A DNA stretch of 64,000 bases from Succinimonas amylolytica DSM 2873 (GTDB lineage: Bacteria > Pseudomonadota > Gammaproteobacteria > Enterobacterales > Succinivibrionaceae). Shown here piece after piece: positions 32,735 through 41,877 of the stretch (position 1 is the stretch's first letter; the number at the start of each line of letters is the position of its first letter). The position numbers and the translations under genes are program-made. The notes below the pieces were generated by a model that saw only the letters and a program-made list of their open reading frames with translations, was not told where the DNA came from and made no database searches. The DNA is taken from contig NZ_KB899636.1 of NCBI RefSeq assembly GCF_000378405.1, positions 1,430,209 to 1,494,208 of the forward strand, in the 5' to 3' direction.

Positions 32735-33457
32735 TTGACTACTAACGATAACAAAAAATCCCGACAGCTTGAAAGAATCAGGAAGCTTCTAAGTCTTAGT
32801 AAATCGGCCAATCCTCATGAGGCAGCCACGGCACTTAATATGGCTATCAGGATTCTCAGGGAGAACGGACTCACTATGGATGATGTGGGTCTTTCGGAAA
32901 TCAGGAGCGTGATAATCACCAAGGTGCTTTCGTCCAGCATGAATAAAACCCCGGTATATGAAAATATGTTCCTGAATCTTATTCAAAAATCTTTCGGTGT
33001 TAATTTCATACTGTGCAGCGACGGTTACCGGAAACGTTACGAAATATATGGTCCGGCTGATCGTGTGGATATGGCTGCTTATGTCTGCGAGGTTCTCGTG
33101 AGACAGATTTGCGCTGCCAGAAAGAAGTATCTCAGAGAATACTGCGATTTTCCAGGCTACGGCTACTTAAGAACTCTTAAAAGGGATAAAGCGGACAACT
33201 ATTGCCGGGGGTGGGTTTCCGGAGTGTCTCAGCTGGTGCACGGTTTTGTGGAGGTAACGCCGGAAGAGGAGAAAATGATGCTGGCGTATCGCAATTCCAA
33301 GTATGTGAACATCGGTATGACCAAAAACAGGCAGACCAGTGCCAGCTGGGACGCCTCAGGTTATCGCCAGGGCATGGCTGACGGTCTCAATGCAACTCTT
33401 AATCGGCCGGTTAACGGCAGTGATGTCCGGGAATTTGTTCTGGGATATCAGGGGTGA
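32735..33457 (+). CDS. DUF2786 domain protein
   Basis: A 240-residue protein. RQLERIRKLLSLSKSANPHEAATALNMA is a DUF2786 N-terminal domain, found in phage- and plasmid-linked and some chromosomal proteins and of unknown function. The remaining 180 residues (region around FGVNFILCSDGYRKRYEIYG) fit the domain that usually accompanies it. The start is a TTG at 32735 with AAGG nearby; no ATG lies before the domain. There is no membrane segment. It stands alone between the methyltransferase gene and a convergent MBL hydrolase gene. Confidence 0.75.
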   Translation: MTTNDNKKSRQLERIRKLLSLSKSANPHEAATALNMAIRILRENGLTMDDVGLSEIRSVIITKVLSSSMNKTPVYENMFLNLIQKSFGVNFILCSDGYRKRYEIYGPADRVDMAAYVCEVLVRQICAARKKYLREYCDFPGYGYLRTLKRDKADNYCRGWVSGVSQLVHGFVEVTPEEEKMMLAYRNSKYVNIGMTKNRQTSASWDASGYRQGMADGLNATLNRPVNGSDVREFVLGYQG

Positions 33458-36931: not shown

Positions 36932-38197
36932 ATGAAACCGGGAAATGAGAAGAAACAGGAGAATCGGAAAATGGCCTACAGCGAGCTAATCAAGGATTTC
37001 AGCCGCATAAGATCCTATCTCAGATGTTTTTATGTGTACGGGTTTCAGCATCGGGACGACTTTACTAGGAAAAGTGCCCGCAGCTATGACAATGAACGCC
37101 GCCGTATTGAAAGCTGGCTGGGAGGCTATCTTTCATTTCGCCAGGATGAAAACGGACGGCGGATGTTTTTTAGTGTGGACAGTCGCCAGTTTCCCCGGAA
37201 TCCTCTGTACCGGGCCTTCAAGACGAAGAGTTTTACAGGCTGGGATATTGCGCTTCACTTTTATCTTCTGGCAATTTTAAACGGATCGGACCCTCTGGCG
37301 ATTACTGCCATAGCGGATCGGCTTTCGGAAATGCTGTCCTGTTTTGAGAACGAAGATCAGCCTGATGAGTCCACTGTACGAAAAAAACTTAAGGAATATG
37401 CAGGGCTGGGGCTTGTTGTTCAGAAAAAGCGCGGGCGGGAAACTGTTTATGAGCTCAGCAGAGGAAATCCGGATCTTGGAAGCTGGAGGGAGGCTCTGAC
37501 ATTGTTCGCGGAAGTAATGCCTCTTGGTGTAATCGGTTCTTTTATTCAGGATCGGCTGGAGGGGCAATGCGATTTTTTCCGGTTCAAGCATCACTACATC
37601 CTGAACGCCCTGGACAGTGAGGTTATTTTCGAGATTCTCCGGGCGATACATGAAAAAAGACTTGTATCCTTTGTAACAGCTGACGGGCATGAAATTGAAG
37701 CGCTGCCATTCAAACTGTATATTGGCACCCAGACCGGAAGGCAGTATGCTCTTGTCGAATCCCGCAAAAAAGGACGGTTTTTCTTCCAGCGTGCGGATTT
37801 TATTGAAAAAATCAGCGTGGGGGATTTCTATGAGGAGCCCCCGGATCTTAAGCGCCGGCTGGAATATTTTCGGAAGTGCTCCTGGGGGGTTTCCGGCAGT
37901 AACATGGAACATCCCGAGCGTATTGAGATGGTTATTCAGGCTGGCCCCGATGAGGAGTTTGTAGTACAAAGACTGATGAGAGAAAAACGTTCCGGTCTGG
38001 TGGAACGGATTGATGAGTGTCACTGGAAGTTTTCTGCGGAAGTCTATGATCCTATGGAACTTCTGCCGTGGCTGAGAAGCTTTATTGGGAGAATCACGGA
38101 TATCAGCTGTACTCGCGAATGGGTGGTTTCCAGATTCTACCGGGATTTTGCAGATCTTTCCCGCATGTACGGAGTCGGGCGATATGATTTTCAATGA
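36932..38197 (+). CDS. WYL-domain transcriptional regulator, first of a tandem pair
   Basis: A 421-residue regulator-like protein. The N-terminal half includes winged-helix-like segments (about residues 10-165; for example STVRKKLKEYAGLGLVVQKKRGRETVYEL at 145-175). The central WYL domain (about 225-305) spans the stretch from KRLVSFVTADGHEIEALPF to GRQYALVESRKKGRFFFQRADFIEKI, and a WCX-type C-terminal domain follows. WYL domains bind nucleic-acid or nucleotide ligands and regulate stress and defence loci. The next gene overlaps by 14 bp. The Y-RNA-like genes and Ro60 gene follow downstream, making this a candidate regulator of that set. Confidence 0.85.
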   Translation: MKPGNEKKQENRKMAYSELIKDFSRIRSYLRCFYVYGFQHRDDFTRKSARSYDNERRRIESWLGGYLSFRQDENGRRMFFSVDSRQFPRNPLYRAFKTKSFTGWDIALHFYLLAILNGSDPLAITAIADRLSEMLSCFENEDQPDESTVRKKLKEYAGLGLVVQKKRGRETVYELSRGNPDLGSWREALTLFAEVMPLGVIGSFIQDRLEGQCDFFRFKHHYILNALDSEVIFEILRAIHEKRLVSFVTADGHEIEALPFKLYIGTQTGRQYALVESRKKGRFFFQRADFIEKISVGDFYEEPPDLKRRLEYFRKCSWGVSGSNMEHPERIEMVIQAGPDEEFVVQRLMREKRSGLVERIDECHWKFSAEVYDPMELLPWLRSFIGRITDISCTREWVVSRFYRDFADLSRMYGVGRYDFQ

Positions 38198-39128
38198 GAT
38201 TTTCAGCAGCTACTATCGGGTAACGGCGGCAATTCTCAGGGAGGCTGCCAGAGGTAATCTTACTGAGAGAAAGCTTTACAGCATGGTTCGGGATCAGGCT
38301 TTCGGGGAAAGCATTCTTTCACTGCCCGAGGAGCTTCGGAGTGCGAGATGGCATCTTCTGGATCAGAATCTTGTCACCCCTCTTAAGGAGATTCCTGAGC
38401 TTCCGCTGACGGTTCTGGAGAAAAAATGGCTTAAAACTCTGCTTTCCGATCCCCGTATCCGGCTTTTCAGTCCGGATGTGACCGGACTTGAGGATGTGGA
38501 ACCGCTGTTTTCTCCGGAGGATATTGTTTACTATGACCGTTATGCTGACGGAGATGACTGTGAGGATTCCGGGTATATTGAAAACTTCAGAACTGTCCTC
38601 AGGTCGCTGCGGAACCGGGAAAATCTTGAAGTGGTATACGAGAGCCGGCATCATGAGACAGGCACAATTTTTATAACCCCTTTCTACCTGGAGTATTCCG
38701 AAAAGGATGATCGTTTCAGACTGATAGGGGAAGGACATAAAAGACGGTTTACGCTGAACGTGGCCCAGATCAAAAGTTGCCGGATACTTACAGACTGGGA
38801 AACCGCACCATTCAGGGAAATGGTCAGAAAGTCCGTGACCTTTGAGCTCAGGGATCGGCGCAATGCACTGGAACGTGTTCTTCTGCATTTTTCCCATCTG
38901 GAGAAGGAAACCCGAAAGATTGGCGATGACCATTATGTGGTAACTCTTAAATATGATCAGGAGGATGAAATAGAGATGGTGGTGCGGATACTGTCCTTCG
39001 GTCCCTTTATCAGAGTTACCGAACCGGAGAGCTTTATCGAGCTTATCAGGGAACGCCTTAAAAAACAGATGGTTCTTTCAAATACCTGGCGGAGGAACAT
39101 GCAGCAGACAGGAAATGACGGAGTCTAG
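38184..39128 (+). CDS. WYL-domain transcriptional regulator, second of a tandem pair
   Basis: A 314-residue protein. The WYL domain lies at about residues 130-205, covering RNRENLEVVYESRHHETGT, ITPFYLEYSEKDDRFRLIGE and RRFTLNVAQIKSCRIL. A C-terminal WCX-like domain follows (DEIEMVVRILSFGPFIRV). The first 125 residues show no clear helix-turn-helix, unlike its upstream partner. ATG at 38184 overlaps the upstream gene by 14 bp, so they are co-translated and may form a hetero-oligomer. The stop at 39128 is only 7 bases before the first conserved operator-like element of the RNA genes. Confidence 0.83.
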   Translation: MIFNEIFSSYYRVTAAILREAARGNLTERKLYSMVRDQAFGESILSLPEELRSARWHLLDQNLVTPLKEIPELPLTVLEKKWLKTLLSDPRIRLFSPDVTGLEDVEPLFSPEDIVYYDRYADGDDCEDSGYIENFRTVLRSLRNRENLEVVYESRHHETGTIFITPFYLEYSEKDDRFRLIGEGHKRRFTLNVAQIKSCRILTDWETAPFREMVRKSVTFELRDRRNALERVLLHFSHLEKETRKIGDDHYVVTLKYDQEDEIEMVVRILSFGPFIRVTEPESFIELIRERLKKQMVLSNTWRRNMQQTGNDGV

Positions 39129-39134
39129 TCAGGA

Positions 39135-39179
39135 TCGCAACTTTTTTGCCGGGATCTGCAAGGCTGCTGCCAGTATACT
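39135..39179 (+). promoter_or_regulatory. Shared regulatory element and promoter, copy 1 (first Y-RNA-like gene)
   Basis: A 21-bp element at 39135-39155 reads TCGCAAC, then a T-run, then GCCGGGAT. Exactly 18 bp later comes TATACT (39174-39179). The same element recurs at 39447, 39783 and 40233 with identical spacing. It ends at the -35 position and no TTGACA-like hexamer is present, as expected for an activator-dependent promoter. Confidence 0.75.
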
Positions 39180-39186
39180 GAGTTTA

Positions 39187-39338
39187 TCAAAAGCACGAAC
39201 AGCAAAAATTATTCTGGTGTTAAGTTGTCGGTTCGAGTCCGGCTGACAGCCTGGCTGTCATAGTTCCAATTGGTAGAACGAACAAAAAAGTGTGCTTTGT
39301 CAGCCCCCCTTGGGAGAATATCCTGAGGGGGGTATTTT
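39187..39338 (+). ncRNA. Y RNA-like (YrlA-type) RNA with a permuted tRNA mimic, copy 1
   Basis: The predicted RNA starts near 39187 and ends at a strong terminator. A closing stem joins AAAGCAC (39190-39196) to GTGCTTT (39292-39298). Inside, the order is: T-arm (GTCGG-TTCGAGT-CCGGC, 39227-39243); a 7-bp acceptor-like stem closed by a CTG loop (TGACAGC / GCTGTCA, 39244-39260); T and A at the positions of tRNA U8-A9; and a D-arm (GTTC...GAAC, 39263-39279) with a GG in its loop. This is a circularly permuted tRNA-like module, as known for bacterial YrlA RNAs that bind Ro60. The Ro60 homologue is 1.1 kb downstream. Confidence 0.8.
39304..39338 (+). terminator. Rho-independent terminator of Y-RNA-like copy 1
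   Basis: CCCCCCT pairs with AGGGGGG; an inner GGA/TCC pairing lies between the arms, and TATTTTT follows. Its near-identical counterpart ends copy 2. Confidence 0.8.
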
Positions 39339-39446
39339 TCCGGACTGAGCTAATCTGCCCCGGAAGTTATCACTGTTCCCAAAAACAACTTTTGTGATGA
39401 GAGTGAAATGGCGGGTGGTCCCGTAATCAAAGGCAATGGGGGAAGA

Positions 39447-39491
39447 TCGCAACATTTTTTCCGGGATAGCAATATGACCCCGGAGTATATT
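39447..39491 (+). promoter_or_regulatory. Shared regulatory element and promoter, copy 2
   Basis: The element at 39447-39467 (TCGCAAC, T-run, CCGGGAT) is followed after 18 bp by TATATT (39486-39491). It lies inside the gap between the first RNA terminator and the second RNA. Confidence 0.75.
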
Positions 39492-39497
39492 GGATAC

Positions 39498-39652
39498 ATC
39501 AAAAGCACGAACAGCAGCGTTTTTATGACGTTTGGTCGCCGGTTCGAGTCCGGCTGGCAGTTTTGACTGCCATAGTTCAGTTGGTAGAACAGGCAAAATC
39601 AGTGTGCTTTGTCCAGCCCCCCTGGGAGAATATCCTGAGGGGGTGTTTTTTT
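39498..39652 (+). ncRNA. Y RNA-like RNA with a permuted tRNA mimic, copy 2
   Basis: The closing stem is AAAGCAC (39502-39508) with GTGCTTT (39604-39610). The T-arm is GCCGG-TTCGAGT-CCGGC (39538-39554). The 7-bp acceptor-like stem is TGGCAGT with ACTGCCA and a TTTG loop (39555-39572). T573-A574 then occupy the U8-A9 positions, and the D-arm GTTC-AGTTGGTA-GAAC spans 39575-39590. Compared with copy 1 the acceptor stem differs at paired positions on both sides (TGACAGC/GCTGTCA against TGGCAGT/ACTGCCA), so base pairing is conserved while sequence is not. This is direct covariation evidence for the fold. Confidence 0.82.
39617..39652 (+). terminator. Rho-independent terminator of Y-RNA-like copy 2
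   Basis: CCCCCCT pairs with AGGGGG across a GGGAGAATATCCTG core, then TGTTTTTTT. It is nearly identical to the terminator of copy 1. Confidence 0.8.
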
Positions 39653-39782
39653 CTGGAGCGCAGTTTTACACAGTTTTTTGTCCCCATCCCCCATTCCCCG
39701 CCCTCATTATTATTGACAGAACCAGAGTATTGCTGATTCCAGTGATGATGGGCACGGGAGAATCTGAAAGGGTAATGACAGT

Positions 39783-39827
39783 TCGCAACATTTTTTCCGG
39801 GAAGCCACCGGCCCCTCCGGATACAAT
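39783..39827 (+). promoter_or_regulatory. Shared regulatory element and promoter, copy 3
   Basis: The element at 39783-39803 (TCGCAAC, T-run, CCGGGAA) is followed after 18 bp by TACAAT (39822-39827). Confidence 0.75.
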
Positions 39828-39833
39828 AAAATC

Positions 39834-40010
39834 ATCAAAAGCGCTTACAGCAACTATCATCAGATATACAGAAATGAAAAGCGCTTTGTTTCCATTAAAG
39901 GCGCAGACAGCAATTTTTCCTCGCCAGGGAGCAGGGCAGGTTCGAATCCTGCGAGTATCGCAAGATGCTTTAGTTCATGGTCAGAACGGCTGATAATGCG
40001 CCTTGTTTGT
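39834..40010 (+). ncRNA. Y RNA-like RNA, copy 3, with a duplicated stem unit and a permuted tRNA mimic
   Basis: This copy has two stem units. The first, AAAGCGC (39838-39844) with GCGCTTT (39881-39887), encloses about 36 nt and no tRNA mimic. The second, AAGGCGC (39898-39904) with GCGCCTT (39998-40004), encloses the mimic: T-arm GCAGG-TTCGAAT-CCTGC (39936-39952), 7-bp acceptor-like stem GAGTATC / GATGCTT capped by a GCAA tetraloop (39953-39970), T-A, and D-arm GTTC-ATGGTCA-GAAC (39973-39987). Closing stem, T-stem and acceptor all covary against copies 1 and 2. No clear terminator follows; a 6-bp hairpin at 40021-40038 may mark the end. Confidence 0.75.
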
Positions 40011-40232
40011 AACCATAATGATGTCTTTCATTAGACATTAACCAATATCTTAAGATGAGATGAACCCGTGTTTGTTTGCAAAACGATTCACGCATATGAC
40101 TTCTTAAGTTCCTTGCATGTGCCTGTAGCAAGCCTGCAGAGATAAATTCTTGAATATCCCGATTATTGCCATCGTATCGTTATTGTCATAAAAATATAAT
40201 CATAATGATTGTGTCTCTGATGATTTTTATGT

Positions 40233-40277
40233 TCGTAACTTTTTTACCGGGAAGATGATTTCAGTACTGAATACAAT
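40233..40277 (+). promoter_or_regulatory. Shared regulatory element and promoter of the Ro60 gene, copy 4
   Basis: The element at 40233-40253 (TCGTAAC, T-run, ACCGGGAA) is followed after 18 bp by TACAAT (40272-40277). The predicted mRNA leader is about 130 nt, begins CATCAGAATCATTAAAGAC and resembles the 5' part of the Y-RNA-like genes (CATCAAAAGC), although the closing stem is poor. Confidence 0.7.
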
Positions 40278-40416
40278 AACATCAGAATCATTAAAGACAA
40301 TAAACAGATGTCATGACCTCGGAGGATCTTTGTGCGCAATCCGCCAGCAGTTTGACAAGATTATGCGTTCAGAACAGCCGGAAATCCCGGTCCGAGACAT
40401 TTAAAGGAGAACAGTT

Positions 40417-41877
40417 ATGCTGAATTCATTGAAAAAGCTGACCAATGTCACTTATACCGAAAACGGAGCAATAACTCCACGGAGTACCGAATCTGACTGT
40501 CTGGATCTTTTTGCCACCATCGGCGCGCTTCGGAATGCTTCCGGGGATCAGATTCAGAAACGCTTTTTCAGGGCTTATCTCGAAAATCCGGATATTGCCA
40601 TGAAGACTCTGTTTTATTCCCGCGACATCCGGGGCGGACTTGGTGAACGGCGGGTTTTTCGGGAAATCCTGAAGTGGCTGGCCGAAAACCGGAAGGCTTC
40701 ACTGCTGGCAAACCTGGAGCAGATTCCGGAATACGGTCGCTGGGATGATCTTCTGGTGCTGATTGACGGGAATGCTGGTGCGGAGGCGGGGGCTTTTCTG
40801 AAGAAGCAGTTTCAGGCTGATATGAAGGCTCTTGCCGCGCATGAAAAAATTTCCCTCTTGGGAAAATGGCTGCCTTCCATCAATGCTTCCAGTGAAAATA
40901 CTGTCAGACTGGCACGGCGGCTGGCCGGGGTTTTCGGGATGCGCAGTGTTGATTACCGGAAGGCTCTGTCCGCTCTCCGGGCGGAGATAAGCATTATTGA
41001 AAACAGTCTTCGTCGGGAGGATTATACCTTCGATTATGGCAAACAGCCTTCAAAGGCCCTGTTTAAATATCGCCGGGCATTTATGCGGAATGACGGCAAA
41101 CGCTACGGGGCATTTCTCGCCAGAATTGAAAAAGGGGAGATCGCCATGAATACCGGGTCACTGATGCCTTACGATATTATAAGAGCTACCTATAACAGGA
41201 GGCTCAGCGATGAGGAGCGTGCGGCTCTTGATGTTACCTGGAATGCGCTGGAGGATTTTACCGGGGGAGAAAATGCCATTGTAGTGGCGGATGGATCCGG
41301 ATCTATGTACGGAGGACGCGGCCTGATTCCGGCTACTGTTGCCCAGTCTCTGGCCATATATTTCGCCGAAAGAAACCAGGGGCCGTTCCAGGGATGCTTT
41401 ATAACCTTTTCGGAGACTCCGCGACTGGTGGAAATCAAGGGGCGGGATATTGTGGACAAGGCCCGGTACTGCGAATCCTTCAACGAATGTGCTGACACCA
41501 ATCTGCAGGCGGTATTTGAACTGCTTGTAAATGCTGCTGTTGCCAAACAGGCTAGTGAGGAGGAGATGCCAGCAACGGTTTATATTGTATCGGATATGGA
41601 ATTCAATGCCATAACCTGTTCCTCATCCCGCAGCAACTTCGAGTATGCCAGAAGCCTGTTTGAGTCCAATGGCTACAAAATGCCCCGGGTAGTATTCTGG
41701 AACGTGAATTCCCGTTCGGAACAGCAGCCGGCAACCAGGGATGACAACGGTGTTGTTCTTGTTTCTGGGGGATCTGCCAGACTGTTTTCTCAGGTTGTAA
41801 GGGGAAATGTTTCAAATCCCTATTCCTTTATGATGGAAACTCTTTCAAATGAGAGATATGCCTCCATAAAGGCCTGA
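40417..41877 (+). CDS. rsr: Ro60/TROVE-domain RNA-binding protein (Rsr)
   Basis: A 486-residue homologue of the Ro 60-kDa autoantigen. The N-terminal TROVE domain (about 1-280) is a HEAT-like ring that binds Y RNAs and the ends of misfolded RNAs; FYSRDIRGGLGERRVFREIL and IPEYGRWDDLLVL are characteristic. The C-terminal von Willebrand A domain (about 285-480) has the metal site VVADGSGSMYGG. Bacterial Ro proteins work with Y RNAs and exonucleases in RNA degradation or ribosomal RNA maturation under stress. The ATG follows AAAGGAGAACAGTT. The three Y-RNA-like genes upstream share its promoter element. No rtcA or rtcB is in the window, unlike the Salmonella arrangement. Confidence 0.92.
   Translation: MLNSLKKLTNVTYTENGAITPRSTESDCLDLFATIGALRNASGDQIQKRFFRAYLENPDIAMKTLFYSRDIRGGLGERRVFREILKWLAENRKASLLANLEQIPEYGRWDDLLVLIDGNAGAEAGAFLKKQFQADMKALAAHEKISLLGKWLPSINASSENTVRLARRLAGVFGMRSVDYRKALSALRAEISIIENSLRREDYTFDYGKQPSKALFKYRRAFMRNDGKRYGAFLARIEKGEIAMNTGSLMPYDIIRATYNRRLSDEERAALDVTWNALEDFTGGENAIVVADGSGSMYGGRGLIPATVAQSLAIYFAERNQGPFQGCFITFSETPRLVEIKGRDIVDKARYCESFNECADTNLQAVFELLVNAAVAKQASEEEMPATVYIVSDMEFNAITCSSSRSNFEYARSLFESNGYKMPRVVFWNVNSRSEQQPATRDDNGVVLVSGGSARLFSQVVRGNVSNPYSFMMETLSNERYASIKA

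Follow-up and report, generated by a model that had tools for sequence, protein, structure and literature searches.

A Ro-type gene and its upstream Y RNA units

Positions 39134 to 41877 of the window (the whole 64,000-nucleotide stretch analysed, from a genome of 3.96 Mb in 23 contigs) hold, all on the plus strand, three small-RNA stretches that each begin with a promoter element, and a Ro60-like gene; two overlapping WYL-type regulator genes precede them. Four Y-RNA units (Y1, Y2, Y3a and Y3b), all intergenic, were found by a search for CAGC with a flanking stem closing on TTGT; the same search also gave chance matches inside genes. The features are:

36932..38197, plus strand: WYL regulator gene A, HTH-WYL-WCX type (PADLOC WYL, 1.3e-7)
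38184..39128, plus strand: WYL regulator gene B, WYL-WCX, overlapping gene A (Pfam WCX, 1.6e-6; PADLOC WYL, 9.4e-11)
39134..39155, plus strand: Y1 promoter element ATCGCAACTTTTTTGCCGGGAT, 40 nt before a -10-like TATACT (39174-39179)
39190..39300, plus strand: Y1, with a closing stem around, in this order, the T-arm (39227-39243), the capped acceptor stem (39244-39260), TA (39261-39262) and the D-arm (39263-39279)
39303..39333, plus strand: intrinsic-terminator-like hairpin after Y1, 13 pairs followed by ATTTTT
39446..39467, plus strand: Y2 promoter element, 40 nt before a -10-like TATATT (39486-39491)
39502..39612, plus strand: Y2, with T-arm (39538-39554), capped acceptor (39555-39572), TA (39573-39574) and D-arm (39575-39590)
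39782..39803, plus strand: Y3a-Y3b promoter element, 40 nt before a -10-like TACAAT (39822-39827)
39838..39889, plus strand: Y3a, a short Y RNA unit without the tRNA mimic
39898..40006, plus strand: Y3b, with T-arm (39936-39952), capped acceptor (39953-39970), TA (39971-39972) and D-arm (39973-39987)
40232..40253, plus strand: Ro gene promoter element, 40 nt before a -10-like TACAAT (40272-40277)
40417..41877, plus strand: Ro60-like gene, DUF2828 and DUF7788, with a helical, presumably ring-forming part and a vWA part containing DGSGS

The four units share a common basal helix (AAAGNNN..ACAGC paired with its complement ending in UUUGU). The initial annotation had described three RNA genes of one architecture; the permuted tRNA elbow is present in Y1, Y2 and Y3b, but the units number four, because the third 'gene' is a tandem of Y3a, which lacks the mimic, and Y3b. 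The sequences agree with the 5-bp T-stem, 7-nt loop, 7-bp acceptor stem and U-A reported for all three mimics. The T-stems read GTCGG/CCGGC, GCCGG/CCGGC and GCAGG/CCTGC, all with 7-nt loops of the form TTCGARY, and the acceptor stems TGACAGC/GCTGTCA, TGGCAGT/ACTGCCA and GAGTATC/GATGCTT (the last with two G-U pairs), capped by 3-4 nt. TA follows the acceptor in Y1, Y2 and Y3b alike, and after it comes a D-arm that has a 4-bp stem and GG in the loop. Y2 has in addition a 5-bp hairpin with a 7-nt loop (UUUUAUG) ahead of its T-arm.

The mimic helices are contained in the lowest-energy folds of Y1 and Y3b; that of Y2 is a competing fold without the cloverleaf-like helices. Judged by folding energy, the support is weak for Y1 (z = -1.49; 15 of 200 shuffles do as well) and better for Y3b (z = -2.97; 2 of 200). 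A terminator scan returned two sites (shuffled mean 1.5), the hairpin after Y1 and, spuriously, the T-arm of Y2. Covariation was assessed with the Y1 stems as reference structure in nine units picked for carrying the mimic: three from the window, one from a paralogous locus of the same genome (L019), two from a Succinivibrionaceae relative (L036), two from Enterococcus phage EFGrNG (L136) and one from a viral contig (L122). Among these mimic-bearing units 93.0% of the cells pair and both sides change in 15 of the 23 pairs, with a covariation score of 0.571 (0.216 when shuffled, at most 0.182 when slid), and pairing falls to 36-57% when the partners are slid. The earlier statement that the stems differ in sequence yet keep pairing is thereby borne out. 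In the L019 unit and in one L036 unit (L036b) the TA is lost and the D-arm is shortened.

The annotation had also pointed to known YrlA-type Y RNAs with a tRNA-like module, and had proposed a YrlA covariance-model search as a check. The Rfam YrlA model (RF02553) matches Y2 with 38.4 bits (E = 7.7e-6), Y1 with 36.3 bits (E = 3.1e-5) and Y3b weakly, with 19.6 bits, and its alignment of Y1 and Y2 follows the YrlA order of basal stem, T-arm, capped acceptor, UA and D-arm. However, none of the Y units in the window reaches the gathering score of 69 bits, so that the same permuted fold inside a basal stem is supported while formal membership of the Rfam family is not. The model also gives matches below the cut-off in 13 of 14 control genomes and nine other matches in the present genome, all at tandem tRNA genes. 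These nine are a warning and perhaps a hint at the origin of the mimics. We considered tandem tRNA genes as the identity of the units themselves and rejected this: the nine other matches coincide with tandem tRNAs and those of the window do not, and ARAGORN finds no tRNA gene in the whole window.

The product of the Ro60-like gene has 486 residues and matches Pfam DUF2828 and DUF7788; we take its helical part to be a ring and its DGSGS motif to be MIDAS-like. With an AlphaFold2 model (mean pLDDT 78.9) as query, the 13 top-ranked Foldseek matches are all Ro60 or TROVE entries (1.8e-7 to 2nvo). Structure alignment of the model gives Z = 16.0 to 1yvp_A and 11.8-16.0 to Ro60/TROVE chains over 341-417 residues at 9-15% identity, and the best other chain reaches 9.3. 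The protein hence has a predicted Ro60 fold, as far as the model goes, and in this respect the annotation of a Ro60 gene stands. The family is another one: Pfam TROVE (PF05731) has no match in the whole genome at E = 0.001, and TROVE membership was rejected in favour of DUF2828 and DUF7788. A profile search of the sequences of solved structures did not find Ro60 and returned one unrelated chain at E = 0.36; NCBIfam has no match for the three window proteins.

Promoter element and WYL regulator pair

Y1, Y2, the Y3a-Y3b stretch and the Ro gene each lie downstream of a copy of TTCGCAACWTTTTTNCCGGG. Allowing at most one mismatch, the element has six copies in the 3.96 Mb genome, all at its two Ro loci. 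Sites with three mismatches elsewhere in the genome were dismissed as chance, being as many (5) as those of a backwards control (5), and the element was not found at the RtcB genes of the genome. A generic sigma-70 scan gave five sites (shuffled mean 2.5), none of them at the -10-like hexamers of the Y units or the Ro gene.

Of 20 bacterial Ro loci, mostly of gut Firmicutes, 13 have the element, with 21 sites that each precede the loose hexamer T[AG]NNNT by 39-40 nt. The same pair of WYL regulators usually adjoins it: of the 20 bacterial stretches, 14 contain both gene A and gene B, and of the 13 with the element, 11 do. L046 has the element and no WYL genes in its stretch, and the same applies to L019, the WYL genes of whose genome lie in the window. 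WYL genes without an element site at 16/18 or better are found in L047, L048 and L052. Gene A itself has no Pfam match at 0.001, and its homologue at L037:2010-3269 matches Pfam WYL (1.7e-7). Among 89 viral or phage stretches the WYL pair is absent and the element occurs in two, in one of them as a weak site that lacks the hexamer. The other is an unverified faecal contig, which carries RtcB and whose protein is the nearest to that of the window among the phage records. Judging from their co-occurrence, the WYL pair likely reads the promoter element. WYL regulator pairs of the PafBC type consist of two adjacent WYL genes and bind a motif at a fixed distance from the -10; the window has an adjacent pair and a fixed-distance element, a candidate for such a motif.

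The element also stands before other genes: one copy belongs to an additional gene of L037, an ATPase by reading of its sequence, and another lies ahead of WYL gene A on a Subdoligranulum plasmid (L142).

The annotation had noted the absence of Rtc genes. The window indeed lacks RtcB, but the source genome has two RtcB genes elsewhere (at C1:2.0 Mb and on C2, by Pfam), and 12 of the 20 bacterial stretches carry RtcB (in one case as a fragment; the window and the paralogous locus, both without RtcB, are counted).

Relatives in bacteria and viruses and the heads of their Y RNAs

The source genome has a second Ro locus, L019 on contig C3, with a Ro paralogue of 63% identity and two Y units upstream. 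Among 295 genomes of the order this genome alone has the Ro gene (1/295 at a cut-off of 1e-10), which fits a horizontal gain; a further Succinivibrionaceae relative, L036, was found in a separate collection. By their titles, 17 genome contigs with Ro relatives belong to one member of the Succinivibrionaceae and sixteen Firmicutes, several being from ruminant gut samples. Strict Y units are present in 14 of these 17 contigs (none in L040, L041 and L047), with up to eight strict matches in one locus.

In 19 bacterial loci the strict units number 59 on the plus strand and none on the minus strand, against none in each of five shuffles; these counts include L048:2574-2773, which lies across a WYL gene and is probably due to chance, and L044:5787 and L050:5132, which each span two units. 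IMG/VR contains 349 stretches that encode Ro relatives, and in the best 80 of them the strict units number 35 on the plus strand and none on the minus strand (five shuffles: 2/0/0/0/0). Within about 4 kb of the Ro gene, 25 of these best 80 loci have strict units and 55 have none.

The association can also be approached from the RNA side. A protein-blind DNA pattern for the Y core gave 94 and 46 stretches, corresponding to 137 viral loci, and a DUF2828 Ro protein is encoded in 60 of the 137 and in 40 of the 75 of at least 8 kb; in the remaining 77, many of them short, no Ro gene was seen. Redundancy was removed before statistics (94 to 84 units in the first set, 143 to 99 in the second, from which lookalikes of the first were also taken out). 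The one basal-stem position that the pattern leaves free is Watson-Crick paired in all 99 new non-redundant units (A-T 44, G-C 30, T-A 17, C-G 8).

The DUF2828 Ro protein has matches in 675 of 50,697 phage records, many of those listed being annotated as 'Ro-like RNA binding protein'. Looser unit finders also gave chance matches, in one scan three on the minus strand among 40. In another scan, plus-strand matches were obtained in five of eight named phage records (FADO 2, P100 4, EFGrNG 4, phiM7 3 and S-CoN_Ph3 3) and none in Gabriela, adrianh and nt-1. The same scan gave two plus-strand matches in the unverified faecal contig and five on the Subdoligranulum plasmid (L142); its chance matches are one on the minus strand of L142 and L135:4941-5139, which runs into the Ro gene. 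Phage Ro genes adjoin tRNA clusters in P100 and adrianh, and P100 has in addition an RtcB-type ligase and an RNA ligase. No Y RNA is annotated in the phage stretches examined, one of which comes from a record without any annotation. Ordinary tRNA genes stand between the Y units in several bacterial loci (L037, L039, L050, L051 and others by ARAGORN), although some of the ARAGORN calls in bacterial loci are the heads of Y units themselves.

The heads vary on the same Y core and comprise the elbow, anticodon arms and some whole tRNAs in plain or permuted order. L051:4580-4662, for instance, carries two anticodon arms (CTTGA-CTTTTAA-TCAAG and TCGGG-CTCATAA-CCCGA), and L037:5873-5969 a whole tRNA-Phe in plain order. 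Whole permuted tRNAs, in the order anticodon arm, T-arm, capped acceptor, TA and D-arm, are found in EFGrNG (L136:4281-4404, anticodon GAA) and in a viral contig (L122:5609-5723, anticodon UGU), and in both the permuted tRNA is the lowest-energy fold. The anticodon differs between units in like places (L051:5058, UGG; L039:3105, UCG).

Stems of 5 bp that close a CUNNNAA loop were counted in 6 of 51 bacterial units (0.09 in shuffles), in 10 of 33 viral units (0.12) and in 18 of 99 units of the second set (0.21), where four control loop types give 0-1; T-loops, which an earlier count had taken as anticodon-like, are excluded from these figures. The strict anticodon arm is nevertheless absent from 104 of 132 viral units, and the heads of the window have no canonical anticodon arm. 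ARAGORN calls a tRNA directly in 5 of 84 units (a count without shuffle control, in which L050:5132 spans two units) and in four more after circularisation of the head, with no calls in 50 shuffled circularised sets. Two of the circularised calls are Y2 and Y3b of the window, and since a canonical anticodon arm is absent there, they reflect the elbow and acceptor.

Lys-UUU accounts for 9 of the 28 strict viral anticodon heads and for 53 of 1235 tRNA genes at the same loci. Compared with tRNA genes of the same loop class (43 of 607; those with a printed anticodon position that misfits the sequence were skipped), the excess is significant (Fisher, 1.7e-4) in a test on nine units that ignores shared ancestry and with comparison sets that may contain a few Y heads called by ARAGORN. 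The next commonest anticodon head, Asn-GUU, is not significantly enriched (p = 0.056).

Proposed role and relation to known systems

We propose that the locus encodes a WYL-controlled Ro ribonucleoprotein whose RNA heads serve most often as tRNA decoys or tethers in a response to tRNA damage, in bacteria and in large phages; reading this from sequence, we regard the chances for and against as evenly balanced. The WYL pair would switch on the Y and Ro promoters under stress, probably by sensing nucleic-acid fragments, and the basal helix would bind the Ro ring. The head would be an exchangeable imitation of tRNA, either recruiting tRNA-binding enzymes to the Ro particle or drawing them away from real tRNA, anticodon nucleases being one example of such tRNA-targeting enzymes. 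The decoy or tether reading is based on the anticodon arms among the heads of the relatives and on the tRNA genes and RtcB that often lie alongside. An anticodon nuclease is not directly applicable to the window, because its heads lack a canonical anticodon arm; as they consist of the elbow only, elbow-binding enzymes would be the expected partners there, and a YrlA-like tether is nearly as likely for the window as a decoy. A fuller version, which we put forward tentatively and think rather more likely wrong than right, sees the DUF2828 Ro protein and its Y RNAs as a modular tRNA-decoy system common to gut bacteria and large phages. A single Ro ring would be loaded with Y RNAs that each show another part of tRNA (the elbow, an anticodon arm or two of them, or a complete tRNA, plain or circularly permuted), and the heads would soak up or capture nucleases of particular tRNAs, Lys-UUU above all; RtcB would carry out repair and spare tRNA genes would replace lost tRNA, with the window as an elbow-only, WYL-induced branch.

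Other explanations compete with this proposal. The units may simply work like YrlA, the elbow tethering the Ro ring to PNPase (RYPER-like) or gating the Ro cavity, with the anticodon arms as ornament or remnants of captured tRNAs. The window units are built like YrlA, the basal stem of which holds the Ro protein and the effector domain of which binds PNPase (PMC8394870). However, one tether would not need heads as varied as these, U33 and A37-A38 come back in the anticodon arms of many units that otherwise differ, and many units have no elbow at all; we therefore see plain YrlA function as possible but rather unlikely. That the heads are sensors seems less probable still. A nuclease would cut the Y head, the Ro particle would change and the fragment would become the WYL ligand, so that the array reports tRNA damage. 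The link of the WYL pair and its element to the Y array suits this idea, as does the analogous RtcR-controlled operon of Salmonella, which responds to fragments of tRNA cleaved within the anticodon loop; the same source reports that YrlA fragments were not detected on damage (PMC7790460). Moreover, none of the 89 viral or phage stretches, some of which contain Y units, has the WYL pair, and sensing through WYL is therefore not the general role.

Least probable, to the point of being barely credible, is that the units, instead of being functional Y RNAs, are tRNA remnants or tandem tRNA genes in decay. Tandem tRNA genes by themselves yield the order T-arm, acceptor, spacer, acceptor, D-arm, and RF02553 does match them elsewhere in this genome and gives matches below its cut-off in the control genomes. 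Yet ARAGORN recognises no tRNA in the window, the units have promoter elements of their own and, after Y1, a terminator-like hairpin, and the ACAGC/UUUGU closing stem is conserved and covaries (99/99 at the free position); it is because the Y core covaries that we disfavour remnants. The heads may nonetheless have evolved from tandem tRNAs.

We see the main novelty not in the copy number of the units, which had seemed new, but in heads that are exchangeable and include anticodon arms or whole tRNAs, in arrays of such units interleaved with tRNA genes next to the gene of a DUF2828 Ro protein, and in the WYL-linked promoter element. A literature search that fell short of the core Y RNA papers showed, in the available excerpts, neither Y RNAs with such heads nor a WYL-linked element, and a search for DUF2828 returned plant papers only, as judged by title. 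Anticodon-bearing heads address the question of what the tRNA-like part does in bacterial Y RNAs. Competition with anticodon nucleases is named as one untested possibility for the tRNA-like domain of YrlA in PMC7790460; Y RNAs with differing anticodon arms make this idea directly testable, each anticodon head predicting the nuclease to be diverted. Ro homologues are present in phages that infect laboratory hosts, among them Bacillus phage FADO and, on E. coli K-12, the Felix O1-like phage adrianh; Y units were found in FADO but not in adrianh. The loci would add a class of small RNAs lying among the annotated tRNA genes of phages, as well as a regulon linked to WYL proteins, the promoter element of which is conserved across phyla.

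The nearest known system is YrlA with the rsr-yrlBA-rtcBA operon of Salmonella, which resembles the window in the permuted elbow and the Ro-type neighbour gene. RtcB, which belongs to the Salmonella RNA repair operon, is likewise found in many relatives of the window locus, whereas the window itself has no RtcB; RtcR is part of the Salmonella operon (PMC7790460), and at the window a WYL pair adjoins the Ro locus instead. The partner of YrlA is a TROVE protein and that of the window units, which score below the Rfam gathering threshold, a DUF2828 protein. In the excerpt available, YrlA is described as resembling the D, T and acceptor arms and as modified by DusA and TruB (PMC8394870), while relatives of the window add anticodon arms and whole tRNAs. 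Deinococcus Rsr and vertebrate Ro60 are alike to the window protein in predicted fold, but they are TROVE proteins, and the window protein has no TROVE match and 9-15% identity in the structure alignment.

Closer in family are the phage 'Ro-like RNA binding proteins' (mycobacteriophage Gabriela, Listeria phage P100, Felix O1-like phages), which share DUF2828 with the window protein. The WYL pair and the promoter element, both present at the window, are respectively absent and nearly absent from the viral and phage loci. Phage tRNAs that escape anticodon nucleases are a further parallel: the Y heads have tRNA parts from the same clusters, and Lys-UUU is prominent among them. Lys-UUU is reported as a target of PrrC and lysine tRNA as one of PARIS, and the resistant phage tRNAs are described as having altered loops and replacing the cleaved host tRNA (PMC10264068, PMC11455837). 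Most Y heads, in contrast, are not whole tRNAs, and their anticodon loops appear ordinary, as would be expected of a decoy.

Candidate further members of the system

An RtcB gene lies on contig C2 of the own genome (L022:6281-7474), and its product has 56% identity to the array-linked RtcB of the bacterial relative's locus L045. No promoter element was found near this gene in the own-genome element search; it is possibly an unlinked member of the system. The WYL-linked promoter element also has a copy of its own at another gene, L037:4215-5458 in a relative's locus. From its sequence the product reads like an AAA-type ATPase, and the gene may represent an additional class of regulon member.

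Surroundings and carriers of Ro/Y loci

Downstream of the paralogous Ro gene on contig C3, an open frame of 1414 aa (L019:9283-13527) adjoins the second Ro/Y locus and appears to include an ABC1-kinase-like stretch, as read from GDCHAGN...IDFGN. Upstream of the Ro/Y locus in the window, positions 32735-33457 encode a protein with domains DUF7168 and DUF2786. A further locus is carried by the 248 kb Subdoligranulum variabile plasmid OY725878.1 (191808-205274), in the order WYL pair, Y array, RtcB, Ro gene. Three phage loci with Ro genes also contain a tRNA or tmRNA gene.

tRNA and tmRNA genes in phage loci with a Ro gene (ARAGORN)
L098:10121-10195, tRNA, anticodon CUA
L140:7635-7710, tRNA, anticodon UUA
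L136:981-1328 (Enterococcus phage EFGrNG), tmRNA gene

Tandem tRNA genes and the permuted heads

Tandem tRNA genes in the own genome, for instance at C1:1414824-1415058, match the Rfam YrlA model, and these matches illustrate a route by which a permuted tRNA head could have arisen from neighbouring tRNA genes.
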